DNA from: a virus
Strand: one strand, 5' to 3'
IMG/VR virus record: IMGVR_UViG_3300033146_002318
Location: 1 to 24,765 of that record
DNA length: 24,765 nt
Below the pieces are notes generated by a model. That model was not told the origin of the DNA and ran no database searches. It worked only from the letters and a program-made list of their open reading frames with translations. This document shows positions 4,293 to 23,600 of this stretch, piece after piece (the first letter of the stretch is position 1; each line of letters opens with the position of its first letter). Both the position numbers and the translations under genes were made by a program.

Positions 4293-4324
4293 ATTTTATA
4301 TTTTATTCATTTTAATAAGTGTTA

Positions 4325-5182
4325 CTATTCAATTTCATAAGTTAAAAATGTATCTAATTCAAAGTTATCATCTATTCTAATATACCCAGCTAATGAATTA
4401 TATCTATGTTGTATATTAACAAATGATGAAATTGAGTTAGGTCTTGCCTGTAATGTATCTATCTCTATATCAATTACACCATCAATATTTTGTACTTCAT
4501 CAATTAATTTATTTCTAAGTAATGCAGAGTTAAAGGGTAAATTAAGTAAGTAATTATCAATCGCTGTTGTAACATTATTTTTTAAATCATTAATATTACT
4601 TTCACCATTATATTTAATAGTTGCAATTAATTTTAATTTATCTGATTCAATGTTTTGTATTGCTATTTTAGTACCTACAAATTTTATTTTATTGATATAA
4701 GTAATAAAAGCATTTAATTCAGGTGTTGTTAAAACATCATTATCTCTTCCACGTATTTTTAATATCAATTTACCTGATACTTCTAATGCACTTGCTTGTG
4801 CAACAATTTGTTTTGCTGCATCAATAAGTGAATATTTAGGCACAAAATCAGTTGATGAATCAACTGTTATGTTATCTGGATATTGAAATTTAGTAGCTTG
4901 TAATGAGTACCAATTAAATGTACCAACCAGAGCTGCATTTTTTATCGTTTCAATTTCATTAACTTGTGTCTGTATTATATTTTCTAATACCCATTGTGAA
5001 TACGCTACAATATATAATTCCATAACCCAAATTGATACACTTGAATCTGATTGTAATTTATCAAGTAAATCCTGTACATTAGCTATTGTTGTATTTAATC
5101 CAGTTAATTCAGGTATTGTATCTTTATATGTTAATAAATTTGTAAATATTGTATCAAGTGTTCTCGTTGTAAAATTTGCCAT
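4325..5182 (-). CDS. baseplate protein J-like (gpJ/gp47 family)
   Basis: A 285-aa protein. Residues about 1-100 are mostly helical (NFTTRTLDTIFTNLLTYKDT, WVMELYIVAYSQWVLENIIQTQVNEIETI). From about 135 onward it has the alternating pattern of baseplate J proteins: GKLILKIRGRDNDVLTTPELNAFITYINKIKFVGTKIAI, then KLIATIKYNG, then the LLRNKLIDEVQNIDGVIDIEIDTLQ segment characteristic of the gpJ C-terminal core. It lies between the gp25-like and gpI-like genes (order W-J-I), the conserved baseplate wedge operon of P2/Mu-like myophages. It probably forms the wedge that triggers sheath contraction. Confidence 0.72.
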   Translation of the reverse strand: MANFTTRTLDTIFTNLLTYKDTIPELTGLNTTIANVQDLLDKLQSDSSVSIWVMELYIVAYSQWVLENIIQTQVNEIETIKNAALVGTFNWYSLQATKFQYPDNITVDSSTDFVPKYSLIDAAKQIVAQASALEVSGKLILKIRGRDNDVLTTPELNAFITYINKIKFVGTKIAIQNIESDKLKLIATIKYNGESNINDLKNNVTTAIDNYLLNLPFNSALLRNKLIDEVQNIDGVIDIEIDTLQARPNSISSFVNIQHRYNSLAGYIRIDDNFELDTFLTYEIE

Positions 5183-15078: not shown

Positions 15079-16341
15079 TTACCAGCGATTATTTGTTTCA
15101 TAATCTCTATAACTACCTGTTTGTATATCAATTTCTGTGTTATATATTTTTCTACATTTATTAGCTAATGCCAAACTCATTACCATATCATCGTGTAAAC
15201 CAGAAGGAGCTGAGTATTGTATTTTACGTGTTTTATTTGAGTATGTATATTCAAATGATTGTAATTCGTTATGTAAGTCTTCATTTAGTTCTTGTGATGG
15301 TATTTCTATTTCAACTTCGTTGAATGATAATATTAATGTTTCAATAATATCACTTTTACTATTATTATCAGTTTGGAATGCAATTGTATTTGTATATTGT
15401 TTAGATATATCTTCATATAATGGGTCATTAATAGTACCATTGTTTGCTTCTATATAAACTATTGGTTTATATTTATCTAATAATTCAAGTATATTTTGTT
15501 TTATTATTTTCCATTTTTTTTTATTATCTCTATATATATGTATTATTTGATTTTTATCATTGAATATTGTTAATACAGTATAATCATTTGTTTTACCAAA
15601 GTCTAAACCAGCAAATGTCCTTTCATCAATATAATTTGGATATTCATTAATAACAGCGCATTCGTTATAGTTACTAAAAACAGTTCCATCAGATATAAAT
15701 TCAGCCAAGTATTCAGTTTTGAATACACTTTCTGGTAATACTTTTTTTGCATCTATTACTTCTTGTTTATCATAAAATGGATTATCTGAATATAGCATTT
15801 TATAATATTTGTATTTACTATTATCAGTATCCATACCTAATGAACACATTTGATAAAATACATTTTTACCTTTAGGTGTTGATGTTATTATTACTTTTGC
15901 GTTTTTTCTTGCTGCAGTTGTAGGTCTAATTGCTGATTCCCAAGCATCTTTTCTTAAATATGCAAATTCATCAATAAATAAATAATCAACTGATTCACCA
16001 CGTATGTTATCATATCGTTCTGCTGACCTAAATTTTATTATTGTATTTGTTTTTAATACAATTTCTAAATCTGAGTTATTTTGTGTTTGTATTATATTTA
16101 TATCATTAAGCCCATTTTTTATTTTAACAAACACTTTTTTATTTTGTGCGTGTGTTGGTGATATAAATAATATTACACAACCAGGGTCATTTATTGCAAA
16201 ATTCATTAATACGTAAGTAGATAAAACTGTTTTTCCAGATTGTCTTGAGGCATTTATCATAAAATACTTTGCCTTTTTACTACCAACAATATCATTAAAT
16301 ATTGTATATTGTTTATCTGTCAATTCACTTATTATATTCAT
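15079..16341 (-). CDS. terL: terminase large subunit
   Basis: A 420-aa packaging motor. Residues 31-38 ASRQSGKT are the Walker A motif, 120-125 YLFIDE Walker B with catalytic Glu125, and 153-158 TSTPKG the coupling motif III. The C-terminal RNase H-like nuclease has Asp247 (AGLDFGKTNDYTVL), Glu298 (VYIEANNG) and Asp384/385 (HDDMVMSLALA). All catalytic positions are present and length is typical. It cleaves concatemers and drives DNA into the prohead through the portal. Its ATG directly abuts the stop of the small subunit gene (no gap). Confidence 0.95.
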   Translation of the reverse strand: MNIISELTDKQYTIFNDIVGSKKAKYFMINASRQSGKTVLSTYVLMNFAINDPGCVILFISPTHAQNKKVFVKIKNGLNDINIIQTQNNSDLEIVLKTNTIIKFRSAERYDNIRGESVDYLFIDEFAYLRKDAWESAIRPTTAARKNAKVIITSTPKGKNVFYQMCSLGMDTDNSKYKYYKMLYSDNPFYDKQEVIDAKKVLPESVFKTEYLAEFISDGTVFSNYNECAVINEYPNYIDERTFAGLDFGKTNDYTVLTIFNDKNQIIHIYRDNKKKWKIIKQNILELLDKYKPIVYIEANNGTINDPLYEDISKQYTNTIAFQTDNNSKSDIIETLILSFNEVEIEIPSQELNEDLHNELQSFEYTYSNKTRKIQYSAPSGLHDDMVMSLALANKCRKIYNTEIDIQTGSYRDYETNNRW

Positions 16342-16763: not shown

Positions 16764-17537
16764 TTATTTAATATATATGTTATCAGTTTGTAAAATTTCA
16801 TAGTTTGGTAATTGAAAATCTGATAAGCTGTTTATTGTAAATTCAGTTATATTACTATAATCTGCTGATTGTGTGAAATCAAATTCTGTTATTGATATAT
16901 CAAAAATATCAAATATTGTATTCAAGTATATACTATCAACTTGTACATTTTGTGATAATGATAACAATGCATTTAATTTCTTTATTTTTTTAGTATCAGT
17001 TTGATATTTATTAGAACCAGCAATTAAACCTGTTAATGATATATTATAATCACCATTATTCCACATTTGTTTTATTGTACCATCAATACCTTGTGCTATA
17101 TCAGTTATGATATGCTTTGACCTTGATACTGTTATAAATACGTGGTCTAATAAAACAGAATAATACGGTGGTGTACCTGCTGCAGGTTTTTTTAATGAAA
17201 ATGCTTGCTTCAAACGCTCAAGTTCAAGTGTTTTTGTATTACCAATATCTATTAGTGTATCATTTACATTATTTAATTTATTATTTTTATATACAGAACT
17301 GCCAGATGCTAACGTTTCAGTTGAATTTACATATAATGTTACGTGGTCTAATACAATAGTACCTAATGGTGATAATTTAAAATCAGTGAACTTTTGTATT
17401 AAATTTTGTACATCTGTATTTGTTGCATTTATCACATCACCAGTTAAATATTTAGTGTTTGAAAATACGTCACCAATAGAATCTATTCCGAATAAATTAC
17501 CTACTTGATTTTCAATTGTATTTATTTTCATTGCCAT
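16764..17537 (-). CDS. DUF6046-like tail/baseplate adaptor protein
   Basis: A 257-aa protein directly after the tape measure gene (8-nt gap). Residues about 155-257 show a pattern I associate with DUF6046-like proteins of Bacteroidota phages: IDGTIKQMWNNGDYNISLTGL, KKIKKLNALLSLSQNVQVDSIYLNTIFDIFDISITEFDF and the ending ITEFTINSLSDFQLPNYEIL ('W..gdy.i.l.G....y...~i..l..l.....~~v.s.ylN..gI..~~i....~...~n...f.i.slSD'). In related phages this gene sits between tape measure and hub. It probably caps the tube end and joins it to the baseplate hub, like Mu gp43 or P2 gpU, by position. Confidence 0.62.
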   Translation of the reverse strand: MAMKINTIENQVGNLFGIDSIGDVFSNTKYLTGDVINATNTDVQNLIQKFTDFKLSPLGTIVLDHVTLYVNSTETLASGSSVYKNNKLNNVNDTLIDIGNTKTLELERLKQAFSLKKPAAGTPPYYSVLLDHVFITVSRSKHIITDIAQGIDGTIKQMWNNGDYNISLTGLIAGSNKYQTDTKKIKKLNALLSLSQNVQVDSIYLNTIFDIFDISITEFDFTQSADYSNITEFTINSLSDFQLPNYEILQTDNIYIK

Positions 17538-17545
17538 AATTGTTT

Positions 17546-19570
17546 TTATTGTTTTAATGTAGCTACATCAACTACTATTTTTTGTAATTCTTTTGCTATT
17601 TGATTACCTACTTCATTTGTAGATTCAGTTATATTTGTTGTACTTAACTCATTAACACCAATTAACTTTGATATGTTTATAGTTAAACTTTTTATTACTC
17701 TTCGTCTTGATAAATAATCTACTGATGATTTATCACTTTTGACTGCGTTTCCGCGTCCTAAACGTGTTTCCTCAGTTGCAATCTTTTTATTCATTATTCT
17801 ACGATTTAAATCAGAAGTTGACCAGTATTTATTTGGTTCATCACCTACAATTTTTCGATAATCTTTTCGTGCTTTTATTAATTCATTTTGTTTTCTATTT
17901 TTTTCAGTAATAATATCTATTTCCTTATTAAGTTCATTAATATCCCATAACAAACCCGGGTTTTTCCCTGTCAATTTAGTATATACAGCACTTTGTTTTT
18001 CAAATGCAATTGTTGTTGGATTACTAACACCTGCGTTTAACCAGGATGATGTTATTGTTTCGGTTCTTCTGATTTCTTTTTCTAATGATTTTATAATTAA
18101 ATCATATCGTACTGCATCGTCAGACCAGTTTTCACTTTTGCGTTTTAACTCTTTATAATAATCAAGTTTACCTTGATTTGACTCAGGTATGTTTGTATCA
18201 GATGACGAGTTCATTGCAAGTCCCCAAATTGAACCATACTTTGTAGCATTATAAAACGCTTTACCAAACAGACTTAAATTATCATACGCTAACTCACCTG
18301 CTTCACCTGTTAATAAAAGTGATGTAAAACCCTGTACGACTGTACGCATACTTTTACTTATTACACTATTACCCTCCCATATAGAATTAACAAAAGCATC
18401 ATAAGCTGAAGTTGCTTTATCTATATCACCAGCTAAGTTATCTTTCATTATATCTGATAACTCTTTTGTAACACCAATGACATTTTCATAATTTTCTGTT
18501 AAATATTCAATTGTATCTGCACTTGCTGATAAAATACTTAATGCAGTTTGTGCTGTTCTACCAACCTCATCATTCGCATCAGCGAGTGTTAATCCATCTC
18601 GTGCCATATCTTCGTATGCAGCGTGAATAGTTTTCCCTGTTTCTTTAGCATTTGTTGCAGCATCAACTATTATACGTCTCAACCCTGTACCAGCACGAGT
18701 ACCCTTTACACCAGCGTTTGCAAGTACTGATAACATTGCAGTTATTTCTTCAATTGAAAACCCAGCTTGTTTTGCTATTGGTGCAATATAAGACATTGCA
18801 TTTGTATATTTATCTATATCCAATGCAGATGATACAAAAGACGAACCCATAACATCAACGACTCTTTGCATTTCAGTTGAATCCATTCCAAAACCTCGTA
18901 AAGTTTCTGCTGCAACACTTGATGCAGCTTCTAATGAAATGCCTGTTGCTTCTGCTAATGTAACAATACTTTGTGTTGAATTTAAAACTTCCTTTGCAGA
19001 AAAACCGAATTTTAATAATACTTTTTCTAATCCAGCCACTTCTTTTACAGTAAAAATGGACATTCGTCCAACATTTAATGCATTTTTCGCAAGTGATTGA
19101 GTTAATTCTTCATTGCCTTTTAATAATGCACGTATATGTGAAATACTTTTTTCATATTCTATGCCACGTTTTACAAAATCTGCAGTTACACGTGAAGAAA
19201 CATAAGCTATTGCTGCTGGTCCCATTGAACTTGCTAACATTCCCATACCGCCACCCATTGCAGCACCTATTCCACTACCAATGCCTGCACCATTACCCTT
19301 ACTACTACGCAAACTTTGTTTACTTGCTTGATTACGTTTATATATCAACGTTATTTCTTTTTTTAGCTCTGTTTGTCGTTTTCGAGAACCAGTAATATAC
19401 AATTTATTTAATTTAATTAATTGCTTTTCTGTTTTATTTATTGCACGAGTATATTTAATCTGGTCTTTAGTCATTTTACCCAATTCGTTGTGAGTAATTC
19501 TACTAACTTTTTTTACTTCTTTTGACGATTCGTCAATAATTCTCAAACGGAAATCTATATTATCTGACAT
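17546..19570 (-). CDS. tail tape measure protein
   Basis: A 674-aa protein. Residues about 30-80 are basic and helical. Residues about 92-125 are Gly/Ala-rich and hydrophobic (GAGIGSGIGAAMGGGMGMLA). Then follows the conserved tape measure core (TIGR01760-type): YEKSISHIRALL, KEVAGLEKVLLKFGFSAKEVL, TLAEATGISLEAASSVAAETLRGFGM, and MLSVLANAGVKGTRAGTGLRRI (residues about 130-300). The rest is helical. It sets tail length and is ejected with DNA; 674 aa suggests a rather short tail (about 0.1 um, by the usual 0.15 nm per residue rule). The chaperone gene and its frameshift extension lie directly upstream. Confidence 0.88.
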   Translation of the reverse strand: MSDNIDFRLRIIDESSKEVKKVSRITHNELGKMTKDQIKYTRAINKTEKQLIKLNKLYITGSRKRQTELKKEITLIYKRNQASKQSLRSSKGNGAGIGSGIGAAMGGGMGMLASSMGPAAIAYVSSRVTADFVKRGIEYEKSISHIRALLKGNEELTQSLAKNALNVGRMSIFTVKEVAGLEKVLLKFGFSAKEVLNSTQSIVTLAEATGISLEAASSVAAETLRGFGMDSTEMQRVVDVMGSSFVSSALDIDKYTNAMSYIAPIAKQAGFSIEEITAMLSVLANAGVKGTRAGTGLRRIIVDAATNAKETGKTIHAAYEDMARDGLTLADANDEVGRTAQTALSILSASADTIEYLTENYENVIGVTKELSDIMKDNLAGDIDKATSAYDAFVNSIWEGNSVISKSMRTVVQGFTSLLLTGEAGELAYDNLSLFGKAFYNATKYGSIWGLAMNSSSDTNIPESNQGKLDYYKELKRKSENWSDDAVRYDLIIKSLEKEIRRTETITSSWLNAGVSNPTTIAFEKQSAVYTKLTGKNPGLLWDINELNKEIDIITEKNRKQNELIKARKDYRKIVGDEPNKYWSTSDLNRRIMNKKIATEETRLGRGNAVKSDKSSVDYLSRRRVIKSLTINISKLIGVNELSTTNITESTNEVGNQIAKELQKIVVDVATLKQ

Positions 19571-19589
19571 ATTTGTTTAATTTGTTTAT

Positions 19590-19766
19590 TTATTTACTAA
19601 CAGAACGACTTAATAACCACTTCGTTGCAGCATACATTTCAATCCACTTATCTTCATTCGCTGTAAATGGTTCAGTTGATGAAAATGTATCAGCAATTAA
19701 TGCTGTCCACTTTCGCATTATATCTTTATCATCGTTCTTACTAATCGTTGAATTTATTATTTTTTT
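19590..19766 (-). CDS. -1 frameshift extension of tail assembly chaperone (gpT-like)
   Basis: This frame is open from the run of ten A residues (minus strand; 19769-19760) to a stop at 19590-19592, 19 nt before the tape measure ATG. It reads KIINSTISKNDDKDIMRKW, then TALIADTFSSTEPFTANEDK, then WIEMYAATKWLLSRSVSK, a protein-like composition. The upstream 180-aa gene ends on that A run (TTA AAA AAA AAA TAA), so a -1 slip on A-AAA-AAA adds 57 residues, giving about 236 aa. This is the lambda gpG/gpGT arrangement, conserved in tailed phages. Independent translation from an internal ATG (MRKWTAL..) is possible but has no special leader. Confidence 0.75.
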   Translation of the reverse strand, partial: KKIINSTISKNDDKDIMRKWTALIADTFSSTEPFTANEDKWIEMYAATKWLLSRSVSK

Positions 19767-20299
19767 TTTAATGTAACAACACCTAATTGCAACATATCTG
19801 ATAAAAATGGCATATAACTTGTAAAATATTCTGGTTTTTTCATAAATTGTATTAACTCCATATCAGATTCGTCTTCTAATATGCATTTTCTTGCCATTAA
19901 TAGCTTTGCTTTAAATAATTCACCATCATCATATAAATCAATTAATCGCTTTGTTGTTTGAAAGTCTGGTTTTTTAAAATATCCTTTGTATTTTTTATCA
20001 CCATCCTCTAATTCAAATGCAACAATTGACTTTTCTATGTTAGGTATTAGTATTACTTTCTTTTCTTTATCTGCTAATAAATTATATAATTCGTTGCGAT
20101 AACTTAAAAATAAATCAATGTGATTTTCAAAATCAATCATTTCTTCATCACCTGATTTAAAACAATCTTTTGCAAATGTTGTATCTGCAACGAATGAATT
20201 TGTTATATTACGATAAAAAGTTTGATATATACCAAATGTAGGATAATCAAAATTCGCTTTGTATTCTTTGCTTTCTGTTTTTACTGTTATTTCTATCAT
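19757..20299 (-). CDS. tail assembly chaperone (gpG-like), with frameshift site at its end
   Basis: A 180-aa protein that ends VVTLKKK within a ten-A slippery run. It appears to be a two-fold repeat: EYKANFDYPTFGIYQTFYRN in the first half and KYKGYFKKPDFQTTKRLIDL in the second half, the latter followed by a helical segment (DGELFKAKLLMARKCIL). The 'y.a.~~.P~~~~~~~~~~~' plus acidic helix pattern is seen in phage tail chaperones. It is first in the tail operon and precedes the tape measure, the standard chaperone position. Such proteins coat the tape measure during tube assembly and are absent from mature virions. Confidence 0.72.
   Translation of the reverse strand: MIEITVKTESKEYKANFDYPTFGIYQTFYRNITNSFVADTTFAKDCFKSGDEEMIDFENHIDLFLSYRNELYNLLADKEKKVILIPNIEKSIVAFELEDGDKKYKGYFKKPDFQTTKRLIDLYDDGELFKAKLLMARKCILEDESDMELIQFMKKPEYFTSYMPFLSDMLQLGVVTLKKK
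19760..19769 (-). promoter_or_regulatory. slippery A10 sequence for -1 programmed frameshift
   Basis: On the minus strand TTA AAA AAA AAA TAA: the zero frame stops immediately, while the -1 frame continues for 57 codons to just before the tape measure gene. A-AAA-AAA is one of the best known bacterial -1 slippery heptamers. I see no strong downstream hairpin. Confidence 0.75.
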
Positions 20300-20398
20300 T
20301 TTTTGGTTTTTTTGTTTTTTTGTTTATTAAATTGTATTTAACTATATATATATATATATATGTAAAGATTATAAAAAAATCAATTTAATACTAAAAAT
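20300..20398. promoter_or_regulatory. divergent intergenic region with (TA)9 tract
   Basis: The gap between the start codons of the minus-strand chaperone and the plus-strand hub gene must contain promoters for both. It includes an alternating TA run (20343-20361), flanked by poly-T (chaperone side) and an A-rich leader AATACTAAAAATATG (hub side). No clear TAnnTTTG Bacteroidota -7 element or Shine-Dalgarno sequence stands out. The TA run may be an easily melted promoter core. Confidence 0.5.
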
Positions 20399-22015
20399 AT
20401 GCACAAAATAACAACTAATGTGTTCATAAAGGCAATAGATAAAAAACCAATTCCACGTGATTATTCACCTAATGATTATATTAAACCTACATACATAAAA
20501 CTTAATAATATCATTAATATTAATACAGAAGATAATGTAGAAACATTAACTAATATATGTACTATTAAAATAGCCCGTAAAGATATAAAATTTTTAGGTG
20601 GAGATTTGATATTTGAAAACACAAACACAAAATCAAAAGCGGTTGTAATGGCACAAAACTATTCAGAAATTAATGTTATTGCTGGATATGATAATAAACT
20701 GATTGAAATATTTAGTGGATATATTGTAAAATTTGATGTTAATAATGAATTTATTATAATACATTGTGAAGATGAAATGAATAAATTAAAACGTTCAAAA
20801 TATGTAAAAAATTCATTCCCAGCAATTATTAAAGCTAATACAATTCGTGGACAATATAAAGACAAAGGTATTACACAAGTCCCTCCGTATGATTCTGAAT
20901 ATCAAATACCACGTTTTAAATTAAATACACAAACTATATTTGATGATTTTAATATGATTGGTCAAGAAACACAAATTGCTCATATTTTATTATGGCTATT
21001 TGAACAATATGGTTTTAATAATGTTAATACAGATGATTTAGGTAGTTATTTTAATTTTGATTTTGGATATGATATTATATGTGCAAATATACAAGCTGGT
21101 AAAATTATCATTGGTGAACCTATGACAATTGCTGAAATATTAGAACAACTAAAAAAAATATTTGGTATTTATATTTATTTTATTAAATCATATCGTGGTC
21201 TTAGTAGAAAACTTGATGATTATGGTGGGTATGTTTTATTGCCACATAAAACTTTAAACGTTGGTTGGAAATATCCTCATTTAAGAAAAGGTATTGAAGT
21301 TTCTAATTATTTACTTAATACTGGTTTTAAACAATTTGATGAATCTAAATTAAATACATATAACAAACAATGTTCTATAACAAACTATTATAAAAAACTT
21401 ACTGATAAAAAAAGACAATATAATGTGTTTAAATCTGATAATTTAGTTTGGCAAGATACAAACAAAAATAAACTTCAAATCATTGGAACCAGCATTATTA
21501 ATAATGAAAGAATAATTGCAAAATATCCTAATAGTGAAAATAAATTAAAGTTTGAAATTATCAAAGGTGATACTGATGATAATGGTGATAAAAATTCAAC
21601 TGCAATCAAATCTCATTTAGATGATAATATTATTATGTTTAATGATAACAAAGAAAATATTATTAGATTGAACCTACATAATTTAAAGGTGGATGAATTA
21701 AAAAAATTAGTTGAAAATAAATATAATAATTATCCCGACATTGGTTATTCAGGTAATATCGAATTGTGGGGTAGTTACCCAATTACTTATTTTATTAATA
21801 TCGGCGATGTTGTTACATTAATTATGCGTAATGATGTTGATGTTTATGATGAAAAAATTGACACAACTGTTAGAAAGATAGAAAAACATTATAGTTATTA
21901 TATAGATAAAGTTGTTAGAACAATAAATAAAGATGTAGGTTATACTCAAACAATAACATTAGGTAATCGGTATTATTCAACTGAACGTAAGAATGAAATT
22001 AACGATAGTTTATAA
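20399..22015 (+). CDS. baseplate hub protein (gpD/gp27-like)
   Basis: A 538-aa protein on the opposite strand to the other tail genes. The N-terminal half has the hub pattern: TLTNICTIKIARKDIKF ('~~~.a.i~iP~~~~'), YSEINVIAGYDNKLIEIFSGYIVKFD ('gd.v.i..Gyd......f.G.I~~~'), FIIIHCEDEMNKLKR ('~~i~ceD.m..Lk'), then MTIAEILEQLKKIFGIYIYF (the 'a~iL~~L~~~yg~~~~f' helix). The C-terminal half has ELKKLVENKYNNYPDIGYSGNIELWGSYPITYFINIGDVVTLI, the 'G.....G.P.~~~Gd.v.l' strand of gp27/gpD. It sits at the tube end and holds the spike gene product encoded 19 nt downstream. Confidence 0.72.
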   Translation: MHKITTNVFIKAIDKKPIPRDYSPNDYIKPTYIKLNNIININTEDNVETLTNICTIKIARKDIKFLGGDLIFENTNTKSKAVVMAQNYSEINVIAGYDNKLIEIFSGYIVKFDVNNEFIIIHCEDEMNKLKRSKYVKNSFPAIIKANTIRGQYKDKGITQVPPYDSEYQIPRFKLNTQTIFDDFNMIGQETQIAHILLWLFEQYGFNNVNTDDLGSYFNFDFGYDIICANIQAGKIIIGEPMTIAEILEQLKKIFGIYIYFIKSYRGLSRKLDDYGGYVLLPHKTLNVGWKYPHLRKGIEVSNYLLNTGFKQFDESKLNTYNKQCSITNYYKKLTDKKRQYNVFKSDNLVWQDTNKNKLQIIGTSIINNERIIAKYPNSENKLKFEIIKGDTDDNGDKNSTAIKSHLDDNIIMFNDNKENIIRLNLHNLKVDELKKLVENKYNNYPDIGYSGNIELWGSYPITYFINIGDVVTLIMRNDVDVYDEKIDTTVRKIEKHYSYYIDKVVRTINKDVGYTQTITLGNRYYSTERKNEINDSL

Positions 22016-22034: not shown

Positions 22035-23600
22035 ATGAATACAACTAATATAATTAAAAAAGCATTAAAGGAAATTGTTAAAGAAAACATACCTTACGCT
22101 AAAAAATGTATTGTGCGTGAAGTTGATGAAACTACAAACACTTGTACAGTTGAACCAATTGATACTGATACGTTTAATGAATCAGAAGGTGATATAAGCA
22201 ATTATATTTACGATGTTAGATATAGTCCAATAAACCCAACAATTAAAACAACTAATAATATAACTACAACTAAATCTAATTTTTATATTAAAGTTGCTAA
22301 ACAAGCATACGTTTATGTAATGTTTTTTAATGAAACTGACGCCTTTATTGTACAAACATCAGAAATTGATACATTAAATATTTTAGCTAATGAAAATGGT
22401 ACTGGTATAAAAGTGTCTACACCAACAGATAATAGTGGTAGTACAATCACTCGTACAACTATTTCTGGTGATGAAATAATTATGGAAGTTTCTGGTAATA
22501 CTATGGTGCAAATAACTCCAGATAAAACATATTTTAATAATGTTATTGATTGGCAAGTATTAACAACTAAAGGTGCTATTATAAAAACGAAAAATTGTAA
22601 CATTGATTTAATAGTTCCAGAGTGTGGTAAAATATTAATTGGAAAAAATGTTAAAACGATTGATGTTAAATTTAAAAGTAAATACGATGATACTGATACA
22701 ACTAATGCAACATATTATAATTTATATAAAAACTATATTTATGTTTATATAAATTCAGCTTTGAAACAAACAACTGAAAGCGGTAGATTATATACTGGTA
22801 TTACTAATATTAAAAATGATTTAGAAGAATTTTATAGTAATGCTTTAGGTGTTTCATTAACCGAATTCGATACATTACATAACAATACAATTACTGTATT
22901 AACCAATATACAAAATAATACATCTGATAAACTATTTTTAGATAATCTTTATACAACAACTAAACAAATATTTGATTTAAAACCAAGTTATCGTCAGTAT
23001 AATACATACGCAAATAAATATAATTATATATTCTATGCTGATTTAAAAGAATCTATTCAAAATGTAGATAGCCTATTTAGTTCAACATATATATTGGATA
23101 CTTATAAAATATTATATAATGCAATTCTTTCTTTTTATAGTGATGAATTAAATATGAGTGAATTATTAACTATTATGTTTTCAAACTATGGTGGTTTGTG
23201 GGACGCAATTCAAACTAAACTTATTAATAAAATTGATAAATTTATTGCAGATAACGAACCATATAAAAATACTGATATTCAATATAACCCTGATTATGAT
23301 ATTGTTGATTTTGATATGGTTGAAACTGATTTAACTGCAAACTCTATTTTAACACAATTAAAGGAATCAATAGAAGATATTCAAAATAGTACAGCTAATG
23401 ATATTCAAGATATACTTATTCATTTAACACAAATACAAGTTAGTTTAGCGGCTGTTAATAGTGCATTAGGAATACCTGCTCCAACAACACCATTTACTAC
23501 ATCTGAATTAGTAAATAATTTATCAAATTATCAAAATAAATTAGATGATATTAAATCAGATATAGATGAATTATTTGCTGATAATGTGCCTGATGAATAA
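22035..23600 (+). CDS. baseplate spike/assembly protein (gpV-like) with long helical C-terminus
   Basis: A 521-aa protein. Residues about 20-115 resemble the gpV/gp5 OB-fold: KKCIVREVDETTNTCTVEPID, DVRYSPI, and AYVYVMFFNETDAFIVQTSEID. Residues about 125-210 are short polar beta strands (ISGDEIIMEVSGNTMVQITPDKTYF, CNIDLIVPECGKILIG) like the beta-helix/spike segment. Residues about 210-521 are long, mostly helical and polar, ending in NNLSNYQNKLDDIKSDIDEL; this extension is unusual for a spike and may bind a partner. It follows the hub by 19 nt, as gpV-like genes do. Confidence 0.65.
   Translation: MNTTNIIKKALKEIVKENIPYAKKCIVREVDETTNTCTVEPIDTDTFNESEGDISNYIYDVRYSPINPTIKTTNNITTTKSNFYIKVAKQAYVYVMFFNETDAFIVQTSEIDTLNILANENGTGIKVSTPTDNSGSTITRTTISGDEIIMEVSGNTMVQITPDKTYFNNVIDWQVLTTKGAIIKTKNCNIDLIVPECGKILIGKNVKTIDVKFKSKYDDTDTTNATYYNLYKNYIYVYINSALKQTTESGRLYTGITNIKNDLEEFYSNALGVSLTEFDTLHNNTITVLTNIQNNTSDKLFLDNLYTTTKQIFDLKPSYRQYNTYANKYNYIFYADLKESIQNVDSLFSSTYILDTYKILYNAILSFYSDELNMSELLTIMFSNYGGLWDAIQTKLINKIDKFIADNEPYKNTDIQYNPDYDIVDFDMVETDLTANSILTQLKESIEDIQNSTANDIQDILIHLTQIQVSLAAVNSALGIPAPTTPFTTSELVNNLSNYQNKLDDIKSDIDELFADNVPDE

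Follow-up and report, generated by a model that had tools for sequence, protein, structure and literature searches.

A tail assembly chaperone gene with a probable -1 slippage site in a contractile-tailed Bacteroidota phage related to Winoviridae

Introduction

In the IMG/VR virus record IMGVR_UViG_3300033146_002318 a putative tail chaperone gene ends on a run of ten A's, and the 186 bp between its stop and the ATG of the tape measure gene are apparently empty. Does this gap hold the second part of a longer chaperone, which is reached by slippage on the A run? A frameshift of this kind, in tail chaperones of the lambda gpG/gpGT type, was reportedly described by Levin in 1993 and by Xu, Hendrix and Duda in 2004. 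It is long known and widely conserved, according to Xu et al. 2004 as relayed in PMC5009743 and PMC2628397. In lambda the short form coats the tape measure protein and the long form recruits the tube protein (PMC5009743).

Here we analyse the whole stretch of 24,765 nucleotides (hereafter the window). We conclude, with a probability of roughly 90%, that the gene encodes a tail chaperone with -1 slippage, made in a short and a long form, in a contractile-tailed Bacteroidota phage related to Winoviridae.

Results

The chaperone gene, the A run and the -1 frame

The chaperone gene reads GTT ACA TTA AAA AAA AAA TAA TAA at its end, giving the C-terminus ...VVTLKKK. The A10 (Table 1) is the sole A/T run of at least 10 in the window and contains two in-phase A AAA AAA heptamers (19769..19763 and 19766..19760, minus strand). 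From the run, the -1 frame translates as IINSTISKNDDKDIMRKWTALIADTFSSTEPFTANEDKWIEMYAATKWLLSRSVSK (56 residues; 57 codons counting the stop) up to a stop at 19592..19590, with the tape measure ATG (19570) 19 nt further on; the +1 frame is closed after about 5 codons. The predicted long form (0 frame plus extension) has 236 aa.

Table 1. Location of the chaperone gene, its slip site and the adjoining tail genes in the window
Feature	Coordinates	Strand	Details and basis
Tail assembly chaperone, short (0-frame) form	19757..20299	-	180 aa; ORF, stop included
Slippery A10 run	19760..19769	-	directly 5' of TAA TAA; sequence
-1 frame extension	19590..19759	-	56 aa + stop; frame, profile match
Tape measure protein, 674 aa	17546..19570	-	PHROG tape measure families E 4.6e-38; Pfam PhageMin_Tail E 1.4e-28
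DUF6046 tail protein, follows the tape measure in relatives too	16764..17537	-	Pfam DUF6046 E 3.9e-21

A six-frame search of the window was carried out with a profile of the relatives' extensions from which the window was excluded. The -1 ORF (19862..19593, minus strand) was matched at E 4.8e-7 and was the only significant match, the second-best reaching E 0.1. Moreover, with the closest relative removed from the profile as well, the same ORF was still found at E 9.8e-6. Judged by these matches, the -1 frame is homologous sequence rather than a chance open frame.

These results agree with a sequence-only reading of the locus, which had described a 180-aa chaperone that ends on a ten-A run and stops at once, followed by a protein-like -1 frame of 57 codons that closes 19 nt short of the ATG of the tape measure gene. 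On re-checking, the coordinates and counts were right, the 57 codons being correct if the stop is counted. The protein-like character of the extension is borne out by the relatives-only profile, and the gap that the extension was said to explain, put at about 190 bp, measures 186 bp.

Gene neighbourhood and the nearest relative

The tape measure gene, identified by both PHROGs and Pfam, comes next after the chaperone gene on the same strand. In the window the chaperone gene is not beside the tube gene; it is the first of a leftward run that continues with the tape measure, DUF6046 and terminase genes, and 10 kb separate it from the sheath gene. The usual order, with the chaperone directly downstream of the tube gene, is kept in loci L003, L004 and L005. 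Gene order varies among known chaperone families. The block of chaperone, tape measure and DUF6046 genes (16764-20299) stands upstream of the terminase in the window and between the tail tube and baseplate genes in Winoviridae isolates. Compared with the Winoviridae phages lotta8-1 and FPSV-S1, the sheath is 31%, the portal 30% and the DUF6046 protein 27-34% identical, and terminase and gene order differ.

Contig L062 repeats the order of tape measure, DUF6046 and terminase genes, with a chaperone gene upstream on that contig too. The large terminase of the window (15079-16341, minus strand) is 41-43% identical to those of L007, L008, L009 and L018 versus 35% to that of L062, which is much closer elsewhere (portal 50%, sheath 47%), suggesting that the terminase is a mosaic packaging gene. 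Two large plus-strand genes (20399-22015, 538 aa; 22035-23600, 521 aa) are divergent from the chaperone gene. For the first of them no PHROG match fell below E 0.01, and a TA repeat lies between the divergent genes at about 20344-20361.

Relatives were reached with two anchors, the sheath and the DUF6046 protein. The window chaperone as a direct query found no useful relatives among viral contigs, phage records and Pfam, and neither did the whole tape measure among viral contigs; PHROGs gave the chaperone weak matches only, and the terminase led to mosaic relatives that lack it. The nearest contig found was IMGVR_UViG_3300028549_000319, where the gene order is that of the window, running from tape measure, DUF6046 protein, terminase and portal on to the sheath. 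Its chaperone is 36% identical to ours (E 2.6e-30) and its gene ends GAC TTA AAA AAA AAA TAG, an A10 in the same phase. A homologous -1 extension follows, with its stop just 5' of the tape measure ATG. The in-phase A10 is kept though nearly two thirds of the residues differ; this speaks against a sequencing slip and points to selection on the slip site.

Conservation of the layout

The survey of viral sequences comprised 57 distinct loci in which a chaperone precedes the tape measure. An in-phase A-run heptamer near the chaperone stop, together with a -1 extension, was found in all 57. The extension measures 53-83 codons (median 56), compared with a median of 5 for the +1 frame, and the A run is A6 in 11 loci, A7 in two, A8 in five, A9 in 37 and A10 in two. 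An independent set consisted of 45 sheath-bearing loci, nearly all from Bacteroidota genomes, of which 37 gave extension matches. The 0-frame chaperone stands in the -1 relation to the extension in 36 of these 37 and in the +1 relation in none, and mostly ends A AAA AAC or A AAA AAG. Three loci, L032 (about 4300-4770), L160 and L185, keep both frames without a canonical heptamer at the join and may slip on another sequence.

The gene-level control covered 777 distinct, non-overlapping genes of the surveyed loci. An in-phase A-run heptamer close to the stop was combined with 50 or more codons of -1 extension in 54, only 3 of which were not chaperones (among about 720 other genes). A runs of at least 9 were present in 35/52 chaperones versus 11/749 other genes. 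Thus the comparison of relatives proposed in the sequence-only reading came out in its favour, with A run and -1 frame kept in the viral loci throughout and in 36 of the 37 genome loci. On sequence comparison, a whole group of Bacteroidota phages shares the -1 layout, and their database records leave it unmarked. The best tape measure match, Hattifnatt9-1, is outside the surveyed group; ahead of its tape measure gene it shows no -1 extension of this kind.

The nature of the protein

In profile searches the chaperone family matches PDB 3FGX (E 1.6e-5), and the aligned 3FGX chain likewise ends in LKK. An AlphaFold model of the 0-frame 180-aa protein (pLDDT 86) was aligned to 997 PDB chains. The first rank fell to 3fgx (Z 7.8), followed by 2ob9 (HK97 gp13) and 3klu (YqbN) with Z 5.8 each; beyond these three only 5ir0 (Z 5.3) was clearly above background. 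A Foldseek search with the model gave no significant match, and the fold claim therefore draws on the profile match, the structural ranking and the gene position combined. We regard this as moderate evidence for a predicted chaperone fold of the HK97 gp13/YqbN type, the Z values being middling. The identity as a tail chaperone, which had been assumed at the outset, now has the position before the tape measure, the 3FGX match and the HK97 gp13/YqbN ranking in its favour.

The window chaperone gives two matches to the single-domain profile, i.e. tandem copies of about 90 residues each, and the frameshift site comes after the second copy. A doubled domain is present in 11 surveyed chaperones (175-187 aa, that of the window included), versus a single one in 43 shorter chaperones. 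The extension is predicted to be mostly helical (pLDDT 89); nothing significant was found for it among PDB sequences or viral models.

How the two products may arise

Sequence, phase and conservation, the homology of both halves, the chaperone-like fold and the position come from the analysis; the slippage itself, its ribosomal nature, its rate and its role in assembly we infer. The majority of ribosomes would stay in the 0 frame and yield the 180-aa short form. In a minority, two lysine tRNAs on A AAA AAA before the stop would slip back one base, and these ribosomes would add 56 residues to give the 236-aa fusion. By analogy with lambda gpG/gpGT, many short forms would coat the tape measure protein, the rare long form would use its helical extension to bring in subunits of the tail tube, and both forms would depart afterwards.

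The two in-phase heptamers lie directly before the stop and the site is thus suited to tandem slippage of two lysine tRNAs. Slippage in the window is probably ribosomal. This is favoured by the group as a whole, because homologous sites with 6-8 A's exist in 18/57 loci and because RNA folding is stabler in the 60 nt past the stop (mean z -1.10, background -0.31, p 0.0014). A Shine-Dalgarno-like stimulator is not enriched in the group (7/57 versus 15% in the control); Shine-Dalgarno use is weak in Bacteroidota. In the window itself no clear stimulator was seen, the downstream fold having a z of only about -1 to -1.5. A hairpin, CAGCATTAATTGCTG (19705..19691), was considered and rejected as a stimulator: some 50 nt lie between it and the slip site, too many for a usual one. 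In E. coli, moreover, A AAA AAG is a stronger ribosomal slip site than A AAA AAA (PMC5009743).

Instead of the ribosome, RNA polymerase might slip on the A10; transcripts with 11 A's would then carry the fusion as a single reading frame. Runs of nine A's or T's are enough for bacterial polymerases to slip (PMC5009743). Moreover, runs of at least 9 are common in the chaperones of the group (39/57) and rare in other genes (11/749), a pattern that speaks for the polymerase, as does the want of a clear RNA stimulator in the window. However, the sites with 6-8 A's are short for polymerase slippage and fit the ribosomal heptamers A AAA AAG/C, and a slipping polymerase would not need structure after the stop, yet such structure is enriched in the long-run class too. 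We therefore consider it unlikely that polymerase slippage replaces ribosomal slippage, and possible that it acts on the A10 alone or in addition. The more specific proposal, that RNA-polymerase slippage determines the chaperone ratio in whole or in part in the long-A-run branch to which this phage belongs, we judge improbable.

The two other explanations were rejected on the comparative data. The first takes the extension for a small protein in its own right, made from its own ATG. An in-frame ATG is present in the window (DIMRKW), and in the lotta8-1 record part of the extension is listed under a name of its own, the hypothetical protein gp39. Across the survey, however, the first 18 extension codons hold an ATG in only 10/57 loci and any start codon in 23/57, whereas every one of them keeps the A run in phase at the join. 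Independent initiation is therefore not the conserved feature, and a separate protein is very improbable. An unconserved -1 frame and expression from its own ATG only had been named beforehand as results that would speak against a frameshift; the frame proved conserved and the early ATG infrequent. The second explanation, a homopolymer error masking a single frame with 11 (or 8) A's, has in its favour that ten-A runs are error-prone and that the window is a metagenome contig, and is scarcely credible given that an unrelated contig has exactly ten A's and the same two frames and that the layout recurs in isolate phages and many independent genomes, where the run may be short (A AAA AAG or A AAA AAC, for instance).

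Discussion

The window resembles lambda gpG/gpGT in having a short chaperone gene immediately 5' of the tape measure gene, a slippery site near the 3' end and a -1 frame extension with two products expected. It is unlike lambda in its slip site, an A10, and in the doubled chaperone domain. With the library models used, no sequence similarity to lambda gpG/gpGT-type chaperones was detectable. The predicted fold of one window domain aligns with HK97 gp13 (2ob9) and B. subtilis YqbN (3klu), which in contrast are single-domain proteins with 11% and 8% identity to the window protein. PDB 3fgx (RBSTP2171, Pfam DUF6848) shares the profile match, the best structure alignment and the LKK end; unlike the window protein it is a single domain, and it was deposited as uncharacterised.

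Among Winoviridae, lotta8-1, FPSV-S1 and Peternella_1 likewise carry an unmarked -1 extension in the space from the chaperone to the tape measure gene, and the chaperones of lotta8-1 and FPSV-S1 are tandem as in the window. They differ in having A AAA AAG (A6G) rather than A10 as putative slip site, and they have the canonical order of tube, chaperone and tape measure, whereas the module of the window is upstream of the terminase genes. In the records of these three phages, parts of the region are called hypothetical or a gap is left. The hypothetical protein gp39 of lotta8-1 (L003:12251-12379) is annotated as a gene of its own in the gap that the -1 extension fills.

Taken together, the slip site, the conserved -1 extension, the position before the tape measure and the chaperone-like fold support the gpG/gpGT-type reading that was first made from the sequence. 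This is an unannotated member of that class and not a new kind, the doubled domain and the A9-A10 sites being variations. The paper proposing Winoviridae makes no mention of a frameshift or a tail chaperone (PMC8776804), and no frameshift report for this phage group was found in the open-access literature, most subscription papers lying outside the search.

The profile, together with the motif of a lysine-rich end on an A run followed by an extension of the form ALIR..F..DP..L.D.., may aid annotation by filling the gap before the tape measure. Moreover, since natural variants of one homologous site range from A AAA AAG to A10, they offer a usable set on which ribosomal and transcriptional slippage in Bacteroidota can be tested against each other. 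If polymerase slippage did set the chaperone ratio in the long-A-run branch, one homologous gene would have switched between two modes of recoding, ribosomal at A AAA AAG and transcriptional at A9-A10, inside a single phage group. The finding extends the conserved frameshift of tail chaperones to a branch of Bacteroidota phages and prophages for which it was apparently unreported.
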